The notes beneath the pieces were generated by a model. It was not told the origin of the DNA and ran no database searches. It worked only from the letters and a program-made list of their open reading frames with translations. The position numbers were made by a program, and so were the translations under genes. 64,000 nt of DNA from contig NZ_CP032405.1 of assembly GCF_016806065.1 (NCBI RefSeq), positions 1,100,501 through 1,164,500 on the forward strand. The letters are read 5' to 3'. This document shows, piece after piece, positions 6,201 to 14,338 of this stretch (positions are counted from its first letter, which is position 1; every line of letters starts with the position of its first letter). Origin of the DNA: Rhizobium rosettiformans (GTDB taxonomy: Bacteria; Pseudomonadota; Alphaproteobacteria; Rhizobiales; Rhizobiaceae).

Positions 6201-8906
6201 TCAGCCCCGATTGCGGAATGCCAAACGCATCTGCTTTTCGATTTCCACGAGAGCAAAGAACACCGCACCGATCCCGACGATCAGCAATCCGTCCTGCAAG
6301 GGAACGCTCTGCGTCCCGAACAGGGATTGCATGAAGGGCAGATAGGTGACCGCAAACTGGGCAGCGGTGACTGAGATTACGCAGATCCAGACGACCTTGG
6401 TCCCGCGCACGGCCTGCCACGTGAGCGATGTGCCGTAGATGTTGCGGATGAAAAAGACATTGAAGATTTCCATGACGACCAGGGTATTCATCGCCATCGT
6501 CCGTGCGAGTTCGATCGGATAGCCCCTGTCCAACGCGTAGAGGAATATTCCGAAAACCGCAGCGGCAAAAAGCACTGAGACGAGCAGGACATTCCAGATG
6601 AGGTCGGCGGTCAGCAGCGCCTCCTCCCGGCGGCGCGGCGGTCGCCGCATGGTGCCCTCTTCCGACGGCTCGAAGGCAAGCGCCAATCCGAGCGTGATCG
6701 CCGTGACCAGGTTGACCCAGAGAATCTGGATGGCCGTGACCGGGAGCGCCAGGCCGACAAAGAGCGCGATGATGATCGTCGCCGCCTCGCCCGCGTTGGT
6801 CGGCAGAGTCCAGCTGATCACTTTCTTGATGTTGTCGTAGACGGTACGCCCCTCGCGCACGGCAGCGGCGATGGAAGCAAAGTTGTCGTCCGCCAGAACC
6901 AGGTCGGCGGCTTCCTTCGCCGCTTCGCTGCCCTTCACACCCATTGCGATCCCTGCATCGGCCCGCTTGAGGGCCGGCGCATCGTTGACACCGTCACCGG
7001 TCATCGCGACGGTCAATCCCTGGGATTGGAGTGCGGTAACCAGCCGCAACTTGTGCGCTGGCGAGGTCCGGGCAAAGATGTTGGTCTCGGCAGCGGCAAG
7101 TGATAGCGTGGCATCATCCATGCGGTCGAGATCCGCTCCGGTGAGCACCCGGTTGGTGTTCTTCAATCCGATCATTCCGGCGATCGCCCGGGCGGTCGCG
7201 GCATGGTCGCCGGTGATCATCTTCACTCGGATGCCCGCCTGATGGCAGTCGGCCACAGCGACAATCGCTTCCGGACGAGGCGGATCGATCAGGCCCACCA
7301 GGCCGATCAGCGTCAGCGTGCCGGGAAGGTCGGCCTGTACAAGATGGGCGCCGCCACTTGGCGGATCACCAACAGCAACGGCAAGCACGCGCTGCCCTTC
7401 AGCAGCAAGGACCTCGACCATGTTTTCCCAGTAGGGCGCGTCGAGTGCTGCCGACGAACCATCCGGCATGCGTTGGGTGGCGCAAAGATCGAGAACGGCC
7501 TCTGGCGCACCCTTCACATGGATATGCTTCTTGTTTTCGTCGTCGACATGAAGGACGGCCATGTAGCGATGCGCGGCATCGAAGGGGATGGCATCGATCC
7601 GCCGCCAACCTGCGGTGAAGGGATCGCTGCCGCCCCCGGTGATCTTGCCCGCCAGCGCCATCAAGGCTCCTTCCATGGGGTCGCCTTCCACCCGCCAGGC
7701 GCCATCAGCCGAATGCAGCACAGCGTCGTTGCAGAGCCCGGCTGCGCGCGCGAATTCGGAGAGAACAGCGTGGTCTTGCGGATTAACATCGGCGTCATTC
7801 CAGCGGACGGCACCTTCCGGTGCATAGCCTTCTCCATCAACGGCATAAACATGGCGCGCCGCCACGAGGCTTGCCACGACCATTTCATTGCGCGTCAGCG
7901 TACCGGTCTTGTCGGTGCAGATCACGGACACCGAACCCAGCGTCTCGATCGCTGGCAGCCGTCGAACGATCGCATTGCGTCCAGCCATCGCCTGGACACC
8001 AACGGCAAGTGTGATCGTCATGACCGCTGGGAGACCTTCCGGGATCGCTGCGACGGCGAGACCGACAATGGTCATGAACAGTTCATCGAAAGGCAGATGC
8101 CCGACAACCAGCCCGTAGGCGAGCAGCAAGCCGGATATGATGAGGATGAAGAGGGTCAGCCAGCGCGCAAAGACATCCATCTGCCGAACGAGCGGCGTCG
8201 AGAGAGACTCCACCGCCTCCAGCATCCCGCTGATCTTGCCGATTTCCGTTGCCATGCCGGTTGCAACCACCACACCCTTGCCCGTCCCCGTGGCAACCAG
8301 CGTTCCGCTGAACAGCATGGAACTGCGATCCCCGAGAACGGCATCAACCGAGACGGCTTCGTGGGTCTTGTCGACAGGCACCGATTCACCCGTCAGGGCC
8401 GCCTCCTCGACCTTCAGGCTTCGCGCTTCCAGCAGTCGCAGATCAGCGGGAACGCGATCTCCAGCCTCGACCAGCACGATGTCTCCTGGCACGAGATCGG
8501 CGGCATCAACGGAAGTCCGGCGGCCGTCGCGCAGCACCGCAGCGTGCGGCGCCAGCATGACCCTGATTGCATTCATCGCATCTTCGGCACGACCTTCCTG
8601 CAGATAGCCTACGACGGCATTGCCAAAGACGACCGCGAGGATGACGCCCGTATCAATCCAGTGCTGCATGAAGCCTGTGACCGCTGCGGAAGCCAGCAGG
8701 ACGTAAATCAACACATTGTGGAACTGCGACAGGAAGCGGACGATGGGGCTGCGCTTGGGCGCTGCAGGAAGGCGATTGGCGCCATGAACCTCAAGCCTCC
8801 TTGTGGCCTCCTCTGTCACAAGCCCCGCGACATCGGTCTCCATCGAATGGAGCACATCCTGGGGCGGCAACGCATGCGGCATCAAATCCATTGTTCTGTC
8901 GGTCAT
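6201..8906 (-). CDS. Cation-transporting P-type ATPase (P2 type)
   Basis: A 901-residue integral-membrane pump. In order: N-terminal cation ATPase domain, LTGES actuator loop (171-175), M4 motif PEGLP (289-293), phosphorylation site DKTGTLT (Asp 332), nucleotide-binding domain, hinge TGDGVNDAPAL, and a C-terminal block of about six helices. The Glu of PEGLP in M4 and the N-x-G-E of M5 match residues that bind Ca2+ in SERCA. M6 reads WVNLVTA where SERCA has WVNLVTD, so one key Ca2+ ligand is missing. The ion is therefore uncertain (K+, Na+, Mn2+ or Ca2+ all possible). The start MTDRTMD has an AGAGGA site; a longer frame reaches 8981. Confidence 0.92.
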   Translation of the reverse strand: MTDRTMDLMPHALPPQDVLHSMETDVAGLVTEEATRRLEVHGANRLPAAPKRSPIVRFLSQFHNVLIYVLLASAAVTGFMQHWIDTGVILAVVFGNAVVGYLQEGRAEDAMNAIRVMLAPHAAVLRDGRRTSVDAADLVPGDIVLVEAGDRVPADLRLLEARSLKVEEAALTGESVPVDKTHEAVSVDAVLGDRSSMLFSGTLVATGTGKGVVVATGMATEIGKISGMLEAVESLSTPLVRQMDVFARWLTLFILIISGLLLAYGLVVGHLPFDELFMTIVGLAVAAIPEGLPAVMTITLAVGVQAMAGRNAIVRRLPAIETLGSVSVICTDKTGTLTRNEMVVASLVAARHVYAVDGEGYAPEGAVRWNDADVNPQDHAVLSEFARAAGLCNDAVLHSADGAWRVEGDPMEGALMALAGKITGGGSDPFTAGWRRIDAIPFDAAHRYMAVLHVDDENKKHIHVKGAPEAVLDLCATQRMPDGSSAALDAPYWENMVEVLAAEGQRVLAVAVGDPPSGGAHLVQADLPGTLTLIGLVGLIDPPRPEAIVAVADCHQAGIRVKMITGDHAATARAIAGMIGLKNTNRVLTGADLDRMDDATLSLAAAETNIFARTSPAHKLRLVTALQSQGLTVAMTGDGVNDAPALKRADAGIAMGVKGSEAAKEAADLVLADDNFASIAAAVREGRTVYDNIKKVISWTLPTNAGEAATIIIALFVGLALPVTAIQILWVNLVTAITLGLALAFEPSEEGTMRRPPRRREEALLTADLIWNVLLVSVLFAAAVFGIFLYALDRGYPIELARTMAMNTLVVMEIFNVFFIRNIYGTSLTWQAVRGTKVVWICVISVTAAQFAVTYLPFMQSLFGTQSVPLQDGLLIVGIGAVFFALVEIEKQMRLAFRNRG

Positions 8907-9295
8907 CCCAGTCCTCTGCGCATTTCCATTTGAATCAGGCCGGCTGAAAAATGGCCTCGGCAGCCCTTGCGGGCACTGCATCGCTGCAGTCGGCGGGAGA
9001 ATGTCGCCCTGATGGGCCCGTCACCTTGATCTATGACAATTTTGGAGATGCCGGCCGCAGCTTCGTGGCTCGAATTGCCCTTCGACGAGAACCAACCGGG
9101 AGGTGTGGAAGCACAGGCTCAGGCAAGCCTTGCATCTTAAAAGCAGGTCGTCCTGCGCGATGTCTTGAAACCCGCGGGGCAAGACTTTGTGCCGGAAGGT
9201 GTTGAAAAGGTTGAGACGCATTGCCTCGATCGGCGGTATGCCAACCGGCGGAACACTTTTGAGCACATTCGTTTCAGAACAAGAGGCCGATAGCG
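8907..9295. other. Divergent intergenic region, 389 bases, no gene supported
   Basis: It separates the ATPase gene (minus) and the octad-repeat gene (plus). Short frames on both strands lack ribosome-binding sites and recognisable content. The only signals seen are a near-consensus EcfG-type promoter at 9250-9273 and the ribosome-binding site AGAGG at 9283-9287 in front of the repeat gene. Confidence 0.6.
9250..9273 (+). promoter_or_regulatory. Possible EcfG (general stress) promoter before the octad-repeat gene
   Basis: GGAAC (9250-9254), 15 bases, then CGTT (9270-9273). Both half-elements are exact, but the spacer is one base shorter than the 16-17 usual for rhizobial EcfG/RpoE2 promoters. 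The implied start site is only about 15 bases before the ATG, with the ribosome-binding site at the very 5' end. Weak on its own. Confidence 0.3.
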
Positions 9296-12200
9296 ATGAC
9301 GTCGATTTCCCTGCTCAGCCCAGCCCAGATCCGGGCGCTCCCCAACTCGACGGTTAGCTCCTGGTCAGACGACGAAATCAGCCAGCTTTCGAGCACGCAG
9401 GTCAGCGCCCTGACGTCGTCACAGATTTCGGCGCTGCAGACGGAAGCCGTCGCAGGCCTGTCGACGTCGCAATTGAGGGCAATCGCTCCCCGTTCGATCA
9501 CCGGCCTGACGCTGGACCAGATCACCGCTCTATCGACCGAAGATGTTTCAAGTCTGGTCGTCTCACAGATCGCCGCGATGTCGGCAAGCCAGCTTGGCGG
9601 CCTGTCTTCCGAGCAGTCCGAAGCCTTGACACCGGCACAGGTCGCCCGATTGACTGCAACGCAATTGAGCGCCTTCAGCGCCGAAGATCTCGCGACGTTT
9701 TCGCCGGAAGATATCGCCGCGATCAACACGGCTGCCTTGAGAGGACAATCTCCCGAAAGACTGGCGGGGCTGAGCACCACTCAGATCGCGGCCTTGAAGC
9801 CAAACCAGATCGCGACGCTCACGCCGACCCAGATTGCAGCGCTCACACCCCAACAGCTCGGTGCCTTTTCGAACCAGCAGATGGCAGCCCTGAGTGCAAC
9901 CCAGGTTGCCGCTCTGACGGCCGACCAGCTGGGCGCCCTCTCCACGACACAATTCGCGGCCATTTCGCCGCGCGCGATCGTGGGCCTCTCGACCACTCAG
10001 ATTGCAACGCTTGGCAATGAAAAGGTCGGTGCGCTCACCGCCGCGCAGATGGCAACGCTTACATCGAAGCAACTGCCGGCCTTCACCACCGAACAAGTGG
10101 CCAACTTCTCGATGAGCCAGATTGCGGCGATCAATCCGCGCGCCATGTCGGGTCTTTCGGCCGATCAGATCGCGGCTTTGTCACCGCAGCAGATGGCGAG
10201 CCTCACTGGTACGCAAATCGCGGCCCTGAGCCGCACGCAGATGGCCGCCTTCAGCGGTGACCAGTTATCGGCACTCACCACAACCCAGATCAGAGCACTG
10301 AGCGCGACGCAGATCGCGGCCATACCGCCAGCGACGGTCGCAGGCTTTGGCGCAACCCAGATCGCAGCTCTCACACCGAAGGCTGTCGCCGGACTGAATG
10401 CCGAGCAACTCGCGGCCATGAGCGTCGATCAGCTCAAGGGGCTCAGCACCTCTCAGGTCGCGGCCATGACCGCAACCCAGATCGGAAACCTGTCGGGCGA
10501 TCAGATCGCCGGCCTTTCGAACGCTCAGATCGGTGCAATGAGTGCCTCTGCCGTCACGGGCCTCACACCGTCGCAGATCTCCGCGCTCACTCCCGGTCAG
10601 ATCGGAGCGATGTCGAGCACGCAGATCTCGGCCCTGAAGACCACACAGGTCGCGGCCTTCACGGCAGACCAGATCACGGGGTTGACCCCGACACAGATCC
10701 GCGGACTGACCGGCCCACAGATCGCCGCCATGTCCGAGAACTTTGTCACGGGCTTCTCCGAGGAACAGATCGCGGCCTTGAGCGCGCGCGCCATCGCTGG
10801 CCTGACGGCCGATCAGATTGGCGCACTGTCAATGGATCAACTGGATGCATTGAGCAACACCCAGATCGGCGCGCTGAATGCCACTCAGATCGCAGCGATG
10901 CCGCAAGAGGCAATCGCAGCGATGAGCCCGGCAAAGATTGCGGCGATCAGCGCGAAGGCGATCACCGGTTTGACGTCGGAAAATCTGGCATCGCTTGCGC
11001 CGAACCAGATCGCAGCCTTGACCACCACCCAGATCAGAGGCCTCAAGGCCGACCAGATCTCCGGTCTGACGGCGTTCCAGACCGAAGCGATGACCAACAG
11101 TCAGATCAGCGCATTGTCGGCGGCGCAGCTGTCGGCTCTGTCGGTCAACGCGGTAAAGGCGTGGTCGCCCTCCCAGATCGGCGCCATCTCTTCTGCTTCG
11201 ATCAGTGGACTGACCACCGATCAGCTCACGGCTCTGAATGACAATCAGATCGACAGTCTGACTGCCGCACAGATTGCCAGGATGAACGGCGCGCAGATCG
11301 GTTCGCTGTCTGAGCAGCAGCTGGCGACCTTCCTTCCGGCCGAAATCGCGGCTATTTCGCCCAGCGCCATCTCATCCATATCGCCCGACAAGATTGATGG
11401 ACTGAGCCTCGAGCAGATCGCAAGGCTGACCACGGCGCAGATCGCGGCGATGAAGAGCGAACAGCTCGTGGCCTTCACGCCCACGCAGCTGGCCTCGTTG
11501 AGCTCCAGCCAGTTGCAGGCAGTAACCTCCGCCCAGATCGCAGCGCTCTCTCCGAGCAACATTGCATCGCTGTCACGGGAGCAGATTGCCAGCCTCTCTG
11601 CACGCAGCATCGCCTCTCTGAGCACGGAACAGATCGCCGCCATGTCCGCCGATCAGATCGATGCCATGACGGCCACCCAGATCGCGGGCCTCACGGCAAG
11701 CCAGCTCGACGCGATGCGCAAGGCTGATATTCTCGCCTTCCTGCCGGCAGAAATCGCGGCCATTAACACCAGTGCCTTGAGCAGCCTCGACGCAGAGACC
11801 ATCGCAGCACTCAACATTGACCAGATTGCAGCCATGACCCCGGCACAGCTGGGCGCCCTGAGCAGGGACCAAGTCGCGGCGCTTACGCCAACGCAGCTCG
11901 ATGCCATGAGCGCGAAACAACTGGCAGGCTTTGGTGCAACGCAGGCAACGGCGCTGACGACGGCCGCGCTGGGAGCCTTGACCCCGGAACAGATTGCCGG
12001 CCTGAGCACGGCCGCGATTGCCGCGCTCTCGACGACCCAGATTGCGGCCCTGTCGACAAACCAGATCGAAGCCCTGACCACCGCACAGATGGGCGCATTG
12101 ACGGCCGCACAAGTGGCCGCCCTGACACCGACCCAGCTGAACAACCTGCCCACGGCAAAACTGGCGGCGATCAGCCCAACCGCCATTGCCGGACTGACGA

Positions 12201-13543
12201 CCCAGCAGATCGCGGGCCTCGGTTCGGACCAGATTAGTGCCTTGACCGCTACGCAGATCGCGGCGTTGACCCCGGAACAGGTCGGCGCGATGACGCCCCA
12301 GCAGGTCACACTTCTGTCGAACACCCAGATCGGAGCCTTGGGCGCCACCCAGGTCGCCGCCTTGTCGAACGACGCCCTGGCCACACTGACAAGCGAAAGG
12401 ATCGCGGCTCTCACTGCCAAGGCGATCCCTGGCCTGACGGCGACCCAGATCGCCTCCATGTCGACAACGCAGATCGACAGTCTGAGCCAGACCCAGATTG
12501 CCGCTCTCACCTCGACGCAGATCGGAGCACTTTCGTCGGCGCAGCTGGCAACCTTCTCCAATGCCGAACTCGCCGCGATCGCTCCTGCAGCGATTCCCGG
12601 ACTGTCGGCCGGAAATATCGCTGGCCTGAGCCAGGAGCAGATCGGCGTCCTCACGGCCGCCCAAGTCGGCGCCTTGACCTTCGATCAATTGAACGCCCTG
12701 CGTCCGGATCAGCTGGGCGTGATGAACGCTACCCAGATCGGAGCTCTGACCGCGACCCAGCTTGCATCGCTGTCGGCAGGGACCATTTCCGGTCTGTCAG
12801 CGACCCAGATCGCGGCCATTTCGACCAAGGCCATCCCCGGTTTGAGCACGGCCCAGATCGCGACACTGACCCCAAGCCAGATCGATGCGATGACATCGGC
12901 CCAGTTCGGCGCCCTGAGTGCGACCCAACTGTCGGCCTTCAGCCCAGCAGCGCTGGAAACGCTCACCTCTGCCGACATTGCAGCACTCTCGCCAAGCGCT
13001 GTGGGCGGACTCTCGCCCACGGTCTTCGCCACGCTGCAGCCAGAGCAGATCGCGTCCCTGACAACAGGTCAGGTGGCAGCGCTGAGCTATCACCAGCTTC
13101 GAGCGATGACCCAGGATCAGGTCGGCGCCATGACGCCGGCACAAATCGGGGCGATGAACGCCGTGCAGCTGGCAACACTGGGAACAGACAGGGTCGGCTG
13201 GCTGAGGACGGATCAGATCGCGGCCATCGATCCCAAGGCCATTGGCGGTTTGAGCGTGACCCAGGTCAGCGGCCTCACGGCCGCCCAGGCGGAAGCCCTG
13301 ACGCCGTCTCAGGTCGCAGGTCTCAGTTCGGCGCAGCTGACGGCGCTTGGCGCAAACAACCTGCGGACCTTCTCGACCGAGGATCTGGCAGCCATCAGTC
13401 AGCAGGCGATCCCCGGGCTGACAGTCAGCCAGATTTCCAACATGACGTCGGCGCAGCTTCAGGCGATCACGGCGACTCAGTCCAACTACCTGAGCCCGGA
13501 CCAGATTGCCGCCGTCCTCGCGGCCTACCAGTCGGCTGGATGA
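9296..13543 (+). CDS. Giant octapeptide-repeat protein, 1415 aa, function unknown
   Basis: The protein has six lead residues, 175 consecutive octapeptides without a single insertion or deletion, and a nine-residue tail. The consensus octad is [L/M/F/I]-[S/T]-x-x-Q-[I/V/L]-x-[A/G]; by hand count 122 of 175 have Gln at position 5. Octads that lack it cluster with a 17-octad period (see the repeat entry). There is no signal peptide, no membrane helix, no Cys, one His, and no RTX, autotransporter or enzymatic domain. S/T-(P/A)-x-Q at octad positions 2-5 resembles a helix N-capping box, so a solenoid of short helices is possible. A TxT-bearing beta-solenoid is the alternative. The start has AGAGG nine bases upstream. 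Similar low-complexity repeat proteins exist in alphaproteobacteria without assigned function. No secretion system lies next to it. Confidence 0.9.
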   Translation: MTSISLLSPAQIRALPNSTVSSWSDDEISQLSSTQVSALTSSQISALQTEAVAGLSTSQLRAIAPRSITGLTLDQITALSTEDVSSLVVSQIAAMSASQLGGLSSEQSEALTPAQVARLTATQLSAFSAEDLATFSPEDIAAINTAALRGQSPERLAGLSTTQIAALKPNQIATLTPTQIAALTPQQLGAFSNQQMAALSATQVAALTADQLGALSTTQFAAISPRAIVGLSTTQIATLGNEKVGALTAAQMATLTSKQLPAFTTEQVANFSMSQIAAINPRAMSGLSADQIAALSPQQMASLTGTQIAALSRTQMAAFSGDQLSALTTTQIRALSATQIAAIPPATVAGFGATQIAALTPKAVAGLNAEQLAAMSVDQLKGLSTSQVAAMTATQIGNLSGDQIAGLSNAQIGAMSASAVTGLTPSQISALTPGQIGAMSSTQISALKTTQVAAFTADQITGLTPTQIRGLTGPQIAAMSENFVTGFSEEQIAALSARAIAGLTADQIGALSMDQLDALSNTQIGALNATQIAAMPQEAIAAMSPAKIAAISAKAITGLTSENLASLAPNQIAALTTTQIRGLKADQISGLTAFQTEAMTNSQISALSAAQLSALSVNAVKAWSPSQIGAISSASISGLTTDQLTALNDNQIDSLTAAQIARMNGAQIGSLSEQQLATFLPAEIAAISPSAISSISPDKIDGLSLEQIARLTTAQIAAMKSEQLVAFTPTQLASLSSSQLQAVTSAQIAALSPSNIASLSREQIASLSARSIASLSTEQIAAMSADQIDAMTATQIAGLTASQLDAMRKADILAFLPAEIAAINTSALSSLDAETIAALNIDQIAAMTPAQLGALSRDQVAALTPTQLDAMSAKQLAGFGATQATALTTAALGALTPEQIAGLSTAAIAALSTTQIAALSTNQIEALTTAQMGALTAAQVAALTPTQLNNLPTAKLAAISPTAIAGLTTQQIAGLGSDQISALTATQIAALTPEQVGAMTPQQVTLLSNTQIGALGATQVAALSNDALATLTSERIAALTAKAIPGLTATQIASMSTTQIDSLSQTQIAALTSTQIGALSSAQLATFSNAELAAIAPAAIPGLSAGNIAGLSQEQIGVLTAAQVGALTFDQLNALRPDQLGVMNATQIGALTATQLASLSAGTISGLSATQIAAISTKAIPGLSTAQIATLTPSQIDAMTSAQFGALSATQLSAFSPAALETLTSADIAALSPSAVGGLSPTVFATLQPEQIASLTTGQVAALSYHQLRAMTQDQVGAMTPAQIGAMNAVQLATLGTDRVGWLRTDQIAAIDPKAIGGLSVTQVSGLTAAQAEALTPSQVAGLSSAQLTALGANNLRTFSTEDLAAISQQAIPGLTVSQISNMTSAQLQAITATQSNYLSPDQIAAVLAAYQSAG
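9314..13513 (+). repeat. 175 tandem 24-bp/8-aa repeats with a 408-bp (17-octad) super-repeat
   Basis: Octad 1 starts at 9314 and octad 175 ends at 13513. From octad 18 the sequence falls into nine 17-octad units starting at 9722, 10130, 10538, 10946, 11354, 11762, 12170, 12578 and 12986, plus five octads of a tenth (13394-13513). Position 1 of each unit has the form I-x-x-x-A-I-x-G, as does position 11; position 9 also loses Gln in all units but the first. Octads 16-17 often begin with Phe and carry Asp/Glu/Lys at position 5. From octad 16 on, 47 of 48 non-Gln octads lie at unit positions 9-11 or 16-2. The first 17 octads (9314-9721) carry a shifted version. At the DNA level units differ at many synonymous sites. 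Confidence 0.93.
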
Positions 13544-13582: not shown

Positions 13583-14302
13583 TCAGTTTCGAATCGTGAA
13601 CTGCACACGATCTGCCGGGAAACGGGTTACCGCATACTGGATCGGACGGGCTGCCGGATCGGTATTCAGCGCCCGGGTCACCAGCACGATGGCACCCGGC
13701 GTCAATTCGAGATGAACGACGTCATCAGGCTCTGCGTGGACGGCTGAGATCTCGGTGACCTCACGGACGTAGTCGTCAACTCCACAGCGCGTAAGCGCGC
13801 GGGTAATCGAACCCGTTTCGGCAAATGCCGTGTCGATGCCAGCAAACCGCTCTGCCGGAAACCACATGGTTGAGCGTGAGACGGCACGACCATCGGCCTT
13901 TCTGATGCCATCGAGCCTCAGGACCTCTTCGCCTGGATTGAGTTTCAGGCGCTTGGCGAGATCGGCGGAGGCAATTTCGCGAGCGGACGACAGCAAGATC
14001 CCCTTGAGATCCCGCGCCTGCTCGCCAATGCCTTCGCTGAAGCGGGTACGCCTCCCGATCGGAAAGTCGAACTTGTCGCGCTGGGTAATCATCGTGCCGC
14101 GCCCCTGGGCCGCCCGCACGATGCCCTCCTGAGCAAGCGCCGCAAGCGCGGCACGCACGGTATGCCGGTTCACCCCGAACTCTTCGGCCAGCGCCGTCTC
14201 CGCCGGAACCATGCCCGTCTTGTCATAGAGACCTGCAAGAATATTGGCGCGGATCCGATCGGAAATCTGGCGCCAGAGGGCGACCCCCTTCTGTCTCTGC
14301 AT
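13583..14302 (-). CDS. phnF: PhnF, GntR/UTRA regulator of phosphonate genes
   Basis: A regulator of 239 residues with an N-terminal winged helix (about 8-75; ALAEEFGVNRHTVRAALAAL is the HTH) and a C-terminal UTRA ligand domain (about 95-235). It is divergent from phnGHIJKL, the standard place of phnF. Two adjacent perfect palindromes lie in the shared gap and are likely its operators. It probably represses the carbon-phosphorus lyase genes and is relieved by a phosphonate or a pathway intermediate. The ATG at 14302 is used; a GTG one codon upstream is an equally good start, with GGGAG a little further up. Confidence 0.9.
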   Translation of the reverse strand: MQRQKGVALWRQISDRIRANILAGLYDKTGMVPAETALAEEFGVNRHTVRAALAALAQEGIVRAAQGRGTMITQRDKFDFPIGRRTRFSEGIGEQARDLKGILLSSAREIASADLAKRLKLNPGEEVLRLDGIRKADGRAVSRSTMWFPAERFAGIDTAFAETGSITRALTRCGVDDYVREVTEISAVHAEPDDVVHLELTPGAIVLVTRALNTDPAARPIQYAVTRFPADRVQFTIRN

Positions 14303-14320
14303 CACGGAAATACCGGCTCC

Positions 14321-14338
14321 CTGTCACAAGCTTGTCAC
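14321..14338 (+). promoter_or_regulatory. Pho box upstream of phnG
   Basis: CTGTCAC-AAGC-TTGTCAC matches the PhoB site CTGTCAT-N4-CTGTCAT at 11 of 14 half-site bases, with correct spacing and in the phnG direction, 67 bases before the phnG start. PhoB~P would activate the operon under phosphate starvation. Confidence 0.75.

Follow-up and report, generated by a model that had tools for sequence, protein, structure and literature searches.

Marked-octad spacing in a 175-octad repeat protein of Rhizobium rosettiformans and its relatives suggests a solenoid of about 3.4 octads per turn

Proteins made of tandem octapeptides (octads) are known as the Pfam family PF20080 (ALTTAQ repeat), and in this study we analyzed a member of this family from Rhizobium rosettiformans. 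Its gene lies at 9296..13543 (+) of a stretch of 64,000 nucleotides (NZ_CP032405.1, positions 1,100,501 to 1,164,500), called the window hereafter, and encodes 1415 amino acids (aa). The family profile matches the window protein in 57 stretches with 643.3 bits against a curated cut-off of 26.4 (E 9e-199). Its octads are identical in kind to those of PF20080; the Pfam model spans 38 positions, whereas the array in the window protein is far longer with 175 octads. Also, one relative has a solved structure: HeliScrew4 (PDB 9zem, 120 aa), known here by its deposited molecule name alone, has at most 15 octads and can be aligned gap-free with a 107-aa query piece over 104 residues (E 2.5e-22). A sequence-only reading of the window had known such octad repeats only as unnamed proteins, which this family and the solved relative contradict.

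Further systems are instructive for comparison. In coiled coils, the heptad 3-4 spacing approximates a non-integer helical repeat and special positions lie on one face; octad proteins would follow the same principle, but with a mini-helix as unit, 3.4 units per turn and a 7-10 spacing. Soluble glycosyltransferases of the HMW1C type (NGT) modify an export substrate in the cytoplasm. For crystallized mesothelin, the structure report describes a right-handed solenoid of short helices with 27-37 residues per repeat, each repeat making a full circle (PMC10035497). Caulobacter FlmG O-glycosylates its substrate in the cytoplasm and binds this substrate through its N-terminal part (PMC7591256).

The perfect octad register stated by the sequence-only reading was found again: residues 7-1406 make up 175 octads (9314..13513) with a hydrophobic residue at position 1, Ser/Thr at 2, free choice at 3-4, Gln at 5, Ile/Leu/Val at 6 and small residues at 7-8. 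Residues 1-40 (9296..9415) resemble the starts of other Rhizobiaceae octad proteins and are taken as an N-terminal cap. Gln is absent from position 5 in 53 of the 175 octads, 48 of them from octad 16 onward. In a unit of 17 octads, 47 of these 48 fall at unit positions 9-11 or 16-2, as had been claimed, the sole outlier being octad 30; 5000 random placements, each taken at the best of 17 rotations, gave a mean of 24.6 and a maximum of 32. Octads 17 apart have an identity of 0.417, while the maximum of 2000 octad shuffles at any lag of 1-59 was 0.374. Autocorrelation peaks had been predicted at 8 and 136 residues. The latter is present and followed by peaks at 272, 408 and 544, i.e. the 17-octad series continues at 34, 51 and 68 octads, whereas lag 8 (0.318) is unremarkable among the multiples of 8, all of which are raised. 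For the analysis of spacings, an octad was regarded as marked if it had Ala/Ser at position 5 plus Gly/Ser at position 8. In the window protein, these are octads 6, 8, 18, 28, 35, 45, 52, 62, 69 and 79, followed by 86, 96, 103, 120, 130, 137, 147, 154, 164 and 171, which bears out the alternating spacing of 7 and 10 proposed for octads 28-171 (9962..13417). Octad 113 belongs to this series and falls outside the definition by having Ala at position 8.

To follow the order through the family, we used 46 octad open reading frames (ORFs) from 42 loci including the window, two of which, L048 (+) and L069, are one gene. The top lag is 17 octads in 36 of the 46 and 17 or 34 in 39, while in six it is 10 or 27; peaks at 44 occur, too. 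Successive marked octads are most often separated by 7 (234 gaps), 10 (233), 17 (116), 3 (68) and 1 (38), then by 14 (29), 9 (19) and 20 (14), with at most 12 gaps for each other value. Because many octad proteins are regular arrays of 17-octad units, the turn rule was tested on 20 of the 46 ORFs, picked by eye for having no regular 7/10 alternation. Compared with shuffled arrays, marked-octad pair distances of 3 (1.78-fold), 7 (2.19), 10 (3.56), 14 (1.43), 17 (4.29), 20 (2.30), 24 (2.41) and 27 (3.64) are enriched in this set, and these are the multiples of 3.4 rounded to whole octads. Distance 13 is neutral (0.90) and 30 mildly raised (1.30). Distances 4 and 5 are depleted to 0.02-0.10 and 8 and 9 to 0.36-0.38, and all remaining distances up to 29 stand at 0.02-0.53 of the shuffled expectation. 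The best period of the marked octads is 3.40 octads, or 3.38 on a finer grid in the 17 ORFs left after removal of three near-duplicates. Eighteen further features were tested in these 17 ORFs, and eight share the period above all shuffles: Gly8, Phe1, Asp/Glu4, Asp/Glu7, Leu6, Ser/Thr8 and aromatics at 3.38 octads and Gly7 at 3.40. Ile1 and Lys/Arg4 peak at 2.44-2.46 and are both high at 3.40 as well; Met1, Pro3 and Lys/Arg2 show no period exceeding the highest shuffle.

We infer that one solenoid turn comprises about 3.4 octads (27 residues), and therefore 7 octads would correspond to 2 turns, 10 to 3, 17 to exactly 5, 27 to 8 and 44 to 13. Octads 28-34 (9962..10129) and 35-44 (10130..10369) of the window protein may serve as examples of such two-turn and three-turn modules. 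The 17 octads had been taken as a structural unit; the order does look structural, but 17 octads are not the basic unit, since relatives use other orders and have the rule of about 3.4 octads per turn in common. This rule is new here for the octad relatives. Among more distant homologues (the best 120 of 353 from the protein database, the set used in all comparisons with distant homologues), an alternation of two octads is the main feature, with best periods of 3.40-3.45 octads for the combined mark and Gly8 and of 5.1 for Ala5 alone and non-Gln/Glu5. There, Ala5 obeys an even/odd parity corresponding to a 16-residue unit, with the 3.4-octad modulation of the combined mark superposed.

The octad pattern corresponds to a helix N-cap that includes a capping box and a hydrophobic staple; each octad would accordingly form one mini-helix. 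AlphaFold2 was run on octads 28-78 (9962..11185, 408 aa) and on a shorter stretch (9962-10537, 192 aa). It predicted a regular alpha-solenoid of stacked mini-helices (predicted local distance difference test (pLDDT) 96.1 with predicted template modelling score (pTM) 0.84, and pLDDT 96.8 with pTM 0.88, in the two models), in which nearly every octad forms one helix of 4-6 residues at pLDDT 96-97. In structural alignments with importin-alpha at near-full coverage, 24 octads extend over 275-297 residues, and as an ARM solenoid has about 42 residues per turn, 3.4-3.7 octads correspond to one ARM turn. In Foldseek searches, mesothelin fills 7 of the top 10 places with the long model and, with the short one, all of the ranks 1-8. 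The PDB folds nearest to the 9962-11185 model are thus those of human mesothelin, a cell-surface protein, by homology or by convergence; the sequence similarity is weak (phmmer E 0.08-0.7). HeliScrew4 is absent from the VIA-align results and from the Foldseek top 50, the presence of 9zem in that library being uncertain. The best fold matches, mesothelin (PMC10035497) and ARM/HEAT alpha-solenoids, are short-helix solenoids, as is predicted for the octads, with two or three helices per circle, but have irregular units of 27 or more residues without a strict 8-residue repeat. An ARM/HEAT unit has about 30-50 residues and two or three helices, whereas the octad unit has 8 residues and one helix. 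In the window protein, seam octads, with Ala instead of Gln at position 5, Gly at position 8 and often Lys/Arg at position 4 in phase 11, would lie on one edge of the rod and therefore be spaced whole turns apart. The protein would thereby repeat a module of two turns (7 octads) plus three turns (10 octads), and its relatives would use other whole-turn mixes. With 3.4 octads per turn, the array would make about 51 turns, and with an assumed rise of about 1 nm per turn the rod would be about 50 nm long.

Two other explanations of the order concern its history and its geometry. The 17-octad order could merely reflect that a 408-bp block was duplicated again and again, with no structural meaning, and some relatives do look duplicated in whole 408-bp units: codon identity at identical residues is clearly raised at lag 17 in L043, L046, L048 (+) and L056, and lies far above that of other lags in L043 (0.52 against 0.31), L048 (+) (0.59 against 0.40) and L056 (0.64 against 0.41). 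In the window gene, however, it is 0.374 at lag 136 and 0.363 ± 0.025 at other lags, which speaks against a recent duplication of this kind, and the relatives without a regular 17-octad order keep the distances 3, 7, 10, 14, 17, 20, 24 and 27. Also, the orthologues argue against duplication alone. The eight closest full-length ones (73-97% identity; nine orthologues with the window gene included) come from Agrobacterium albertimagni AOL15, Rhizobium rhizophilum, Peteryoungia aggregata and other Rhizobiales. The nine have 1414-1416 residues and vary in length only at position 4 (one residue) and at the end (one or two residues); internal indels were found in none of them. The ratio of nonsynonymous to synonymous substitutions (dN/dS) against the window gene is 0.062-0.114, indicating purifying selection. 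Mean column identity is 0.91 in the first 126 residues and 0.85 overall; octad position 5 is least and positions 3-4 are most variable, Gln5 is kept in 99.6% of orthologous cells, and non-Gln positions are never Gln. The constant size of so long a repeat array is an argument for the importance of its length and order. The statement that slippage does not explain the order thus holds for the window gene, and we give duplication alone a slim chance. A coil of about 8.5 octads per turn, making two turns per 17 octads as a wide superhelix, would suit the plain non-Gln indicator of the window protein, in whose spectrum the line at 8.5 octads (2/17), not one at 17, is strongest, as well as Gln5, Asp/Glu5, Thr2, Val6 and Ala3, for which the best period in the 17 ORFs is 8.7-8.8 octads. 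A 3.4-octad line was expected in the non-Gln spectrum of the window protein and did not appear (power 0.3 at 5/17 versus 29.7 at 2/17); the 3.4 rule is visible in the marked-octad spacings and other features, not in this spectrum. Across the 46 ORFs, the non-Gln line exceeds the shuffles with p 0.01 or better in 41 and is not significant in five (L037, L068, L072, L076 and one L057 piece). The wide superhelix is at odds with the rarity of spacings 8 and 9 next to the common 7 and 10, and with the fold matches, which imply about 3.5 octads per turn; its chance appears very slim. With turns of 3.4 octads, the second rhythm near 8.5-8.8 octads is a seam about every 2.5 turns, rounded to 7 or 10 by the whole-turn rule.

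As to location, we suppose that the stiff rod would leave the cell without a classical signal peptide and act as a surface or matrix spacer. The candidate for an export signal is a conserved C-terminal motif (roughly QIAAVIAAYQ-x-(I/F); LSPDQIAAVLAAYQSAG at 13490..13540 of the window), found by pattern match in 39 of the 46 Rhizobiaceae octad ORFs and in none of the 120 distant homologues; some of the ORFs without it end at contig edges or frame breaks. A role as C-cap is possible, too. In L037, L068 and L076, the octads stop and a non-octad, low-complexity stretch follows before a variant of the motif. Many of the distant homologues pair PF20080 with secreted-protein domains, namely the haemagglutinin two-partner secretion (TPS) domain PF05860, RTX repeats (PF00353), Ig-like, Calx-beta and a calpain-type protease, and one bears an autotransporter label. 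The window protein differs from RTX adhesins of type I secretion systems, as no PF00353 calcium-binding nonapeptides were matched up to E 1 in Pfam; at the C-terminus, where such adhesins carry a secretion signal, the conserved motif is the only candidate. It also differs from FhaB-like two-partner secretion proteins, as the N-terminal PF05860 domain, present in some distant relatives, was not found in it by Pfam. By reading, no N-terminal signal peptide is apparent, and the neighbors scanned or read include no secretion genes. Both observations would fit a cytoplasmic scaffold that is never exported, the adhesin domains of distant homologues then reflecting reuse of a stable rod. Against such a scaffold stand the TPS, RTX, Ig-like and Calx-beta domains themselves and the persistence of the C-terminal motif behind the non-octad stretch in the three loci, and we hold it to be unlikely.

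Sister octad proteins are linked to glycosylation genes. The genome of the window encodes a paralogous octad protein of 1724 aa (L006:10486-15657 (-); C1:4313-4319 kb of the same genome), with a gene for a glycosyltransferase of family GT41 at a distance of 459 bp and a UDP-galactopyranose mutase (GLF) gene further on. The one GT41 place shown for this genome and its sole GLF gene are both beside the paralogue. In 26 of 58 octad loci (24 of 55 without the overlaps L048/L069, L072/L079 and L068/L082), a gene within 3 kb encodes a protein (about 650-750 aa) that combines TPR with Glyco_transf_41; all eight GT41 candidates scanned matched PF13844, and the nearby GT41s are 59-70% identical to that of the paralogue. 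The best PDB match of the latter is Xanthomonas XcOGT (E 5e-75), while NGT/HMW1C-like entries match weakly (about 1e-6); a His and a Lys, which we take to be H218 and K388, are kept in the XcOGT alignment. GLF (PF03275) is a frequent neighbor of octad genes, and one tested just passes TIGR00031. PF20080 was detected in 54 of 297 genomes sampled from Rhizobiaceae, with more than six matches in 45 of those 54 (strong-octad genomes); both GT41 and GLF are present in 32 of these 45 and in 7 of the 252 others (Fisher p 9e-26, kinship ignored), one or both being missing in the other 13 strong-octad genomes. FlmG (PMC7591256) is comparable as a soluble enzyme that binds an export substrate by its N-terminal part and modifies it in the cytoplasm. 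Enzymes of the HMW1C type are a further parallel, and octad sisters have a linked GT41, but the linked enzyme is closest to XcOGT and no such gene lies beside the window gene.

If GT41 acts on octads, the GT41-linked proteins would be expected to have much Ser/Thr at some exposed position. A candidate site emerged from a comparison of Ser/Thr over all eight octad positions, in which position 3 had not been singled out beforehand. At this position, the Ser/Thr fraction is 0.79 in 28 GT41-linked and 0.50 in 30 other octad proteins (Mann-Whitney p 1.8e-6), linkage being scored per locus so that two octad genes of one locus both count. Position 2 is equal in both groups (0.77) and thus uninformative, no difference at p 0.05 was seen for positions 4, 5, 7 and 8, and at positions 1 and 6, which hardly ever carry Ser/Thr, the groups differ by at most 0.01 (p 0.02-0.03). 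After pooling of the nine orthologues and removal of duplicates and fragments, 25 linked proteins (mean 0.79) differ from 8 of GT41-free genomes (0.49; p 1e-4) and from all 21 non-linked ones (p 4e-4). Five of the retrieved genomes have octad genes of both kinds, and in all five the GT41-linked gene has the higher fraction. A dedicated OGT-like GT41 of the cytoplasm thus likely O-glycosylates sister octad proteins at position 3. Several points weigh against this: the position-3 statistics ignore relatedness, the values of four GT41-linked proteins overlap with those of the GT41-free group, and high values (0.74-0.95) also occur in six unlinked genes, two of them at contig ends with a neighbor possibly missing. 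The window protein itself might be a substrate of the GT41 beside its paralogue, as the genome encodes the enzyme together with the one mutase and a cytoplasmic enzyme can act in trans. Its position-3 Ser/Thr fraction is, however, 0.27 (28-35% in the 8 orthologues) against 0.92 in the paralogue, a GT41 gene was found neither in the window nor in the roughly 10 kb around the 8 orthologues, and a GT41 substrate would be expected to have its cognate gene adjacent. We regard its glycosylation as distinctly unlikely; judging from its composition, the window protein is apparently the version without a sugar coat.

Taken together, we consider it probable that the octad proteins are stiff, exported rods of about 3.4 octads per turn built from whole-turn modules, with glycosylated sisters and an uncoated window protein. 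A more detailed version is put forward tentatively, and we would rather doubt it as a whole: a Rhizobiaceae rod system with whole-turn order (17/5; 27/8 and 44/13 in relatives), fixed N-cap and C-terminal export signal. In it, a GT41 fed by UDP-galactopyranose mutase or other sugar genes would coat the exposed position 3 of almost all octads in the glycosylated forms while these are still in the cytoplasm, and the window gene would be the conserved uncoated form with a fixed number of 175 octads.

Among plasmid records, 58 have a PF20080 match, 17 of them from Rhizobium, 13 from Shinella, 11 from Cereibacter and 2 from Sinorhizobium; the remaining ones are scattered, Pseudomonas among them. 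In L057 (G011:C190), the octad array is divided among three ORFs (1190, 704 and 846 aa) that differ in frame, which is due to a broken gene or an assembly error. Within the window gene, long antisense ORFs (-) at 9274-9780, 9563-10096 and 11245-12688 probably result from its codon composition. Several Pfam matches (CAAP1, SAM_3, Phage_TAC_7, DUF4351 and others) were set aside, no single stretch being significant, as were leucine-rich-repeat matches among PDB sequences, regarded as repeat or composition effects, and one stray NCBIfam match far under its cut-off. The same kind of effect was assumed for three PHROGs families of unknown function (best E 5e-14) and for one match over 9% of the query among phage records, which gave no sign of a phage gene. 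No paper on HeliScrew, ALTTAQ, PF20080, 9ZEM or octad-repeat proteins was found in a search that left subscription journals mostly outside; this is weak evidence for the novelty of the octad-repeat order.

The neighboring genes are not part of the rod. A convergent GntR/UTRA regulator gene, phnF-like by position (13583..14305 (-)), and genes read as the phn operon adjoin the octad gene in 8 of 8 orthologous loci. A divergent P-type cation ATPase-like gene (6201..8981 (-)), named by reading only, is present in 5 of the 8 loci and missing from three. Phosphate control was considered and set aside, as a Pho-box scan gave 2 matches with 3.6 expected by chance; a Pho-box-like sequence lies at 14321-14338 of the window, between the GntR regulator gene and the next gene, in a scan that as a whole was not above chance.

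If the proposed geometry is true, the pitch of the superhelix could be read off the sequence alone for an entire family of repeat proteins, as is done with heptads in coiled coils, and a simple rule for recognizing or designing such rods would be at hand. A family of hypothetical proteins would thereby become a testable system of export and glycosylation, for which an enzyme can be named and a site, octad position 3, is predicted, and the same genome would carry, in the window protein, its natural uncoated control.

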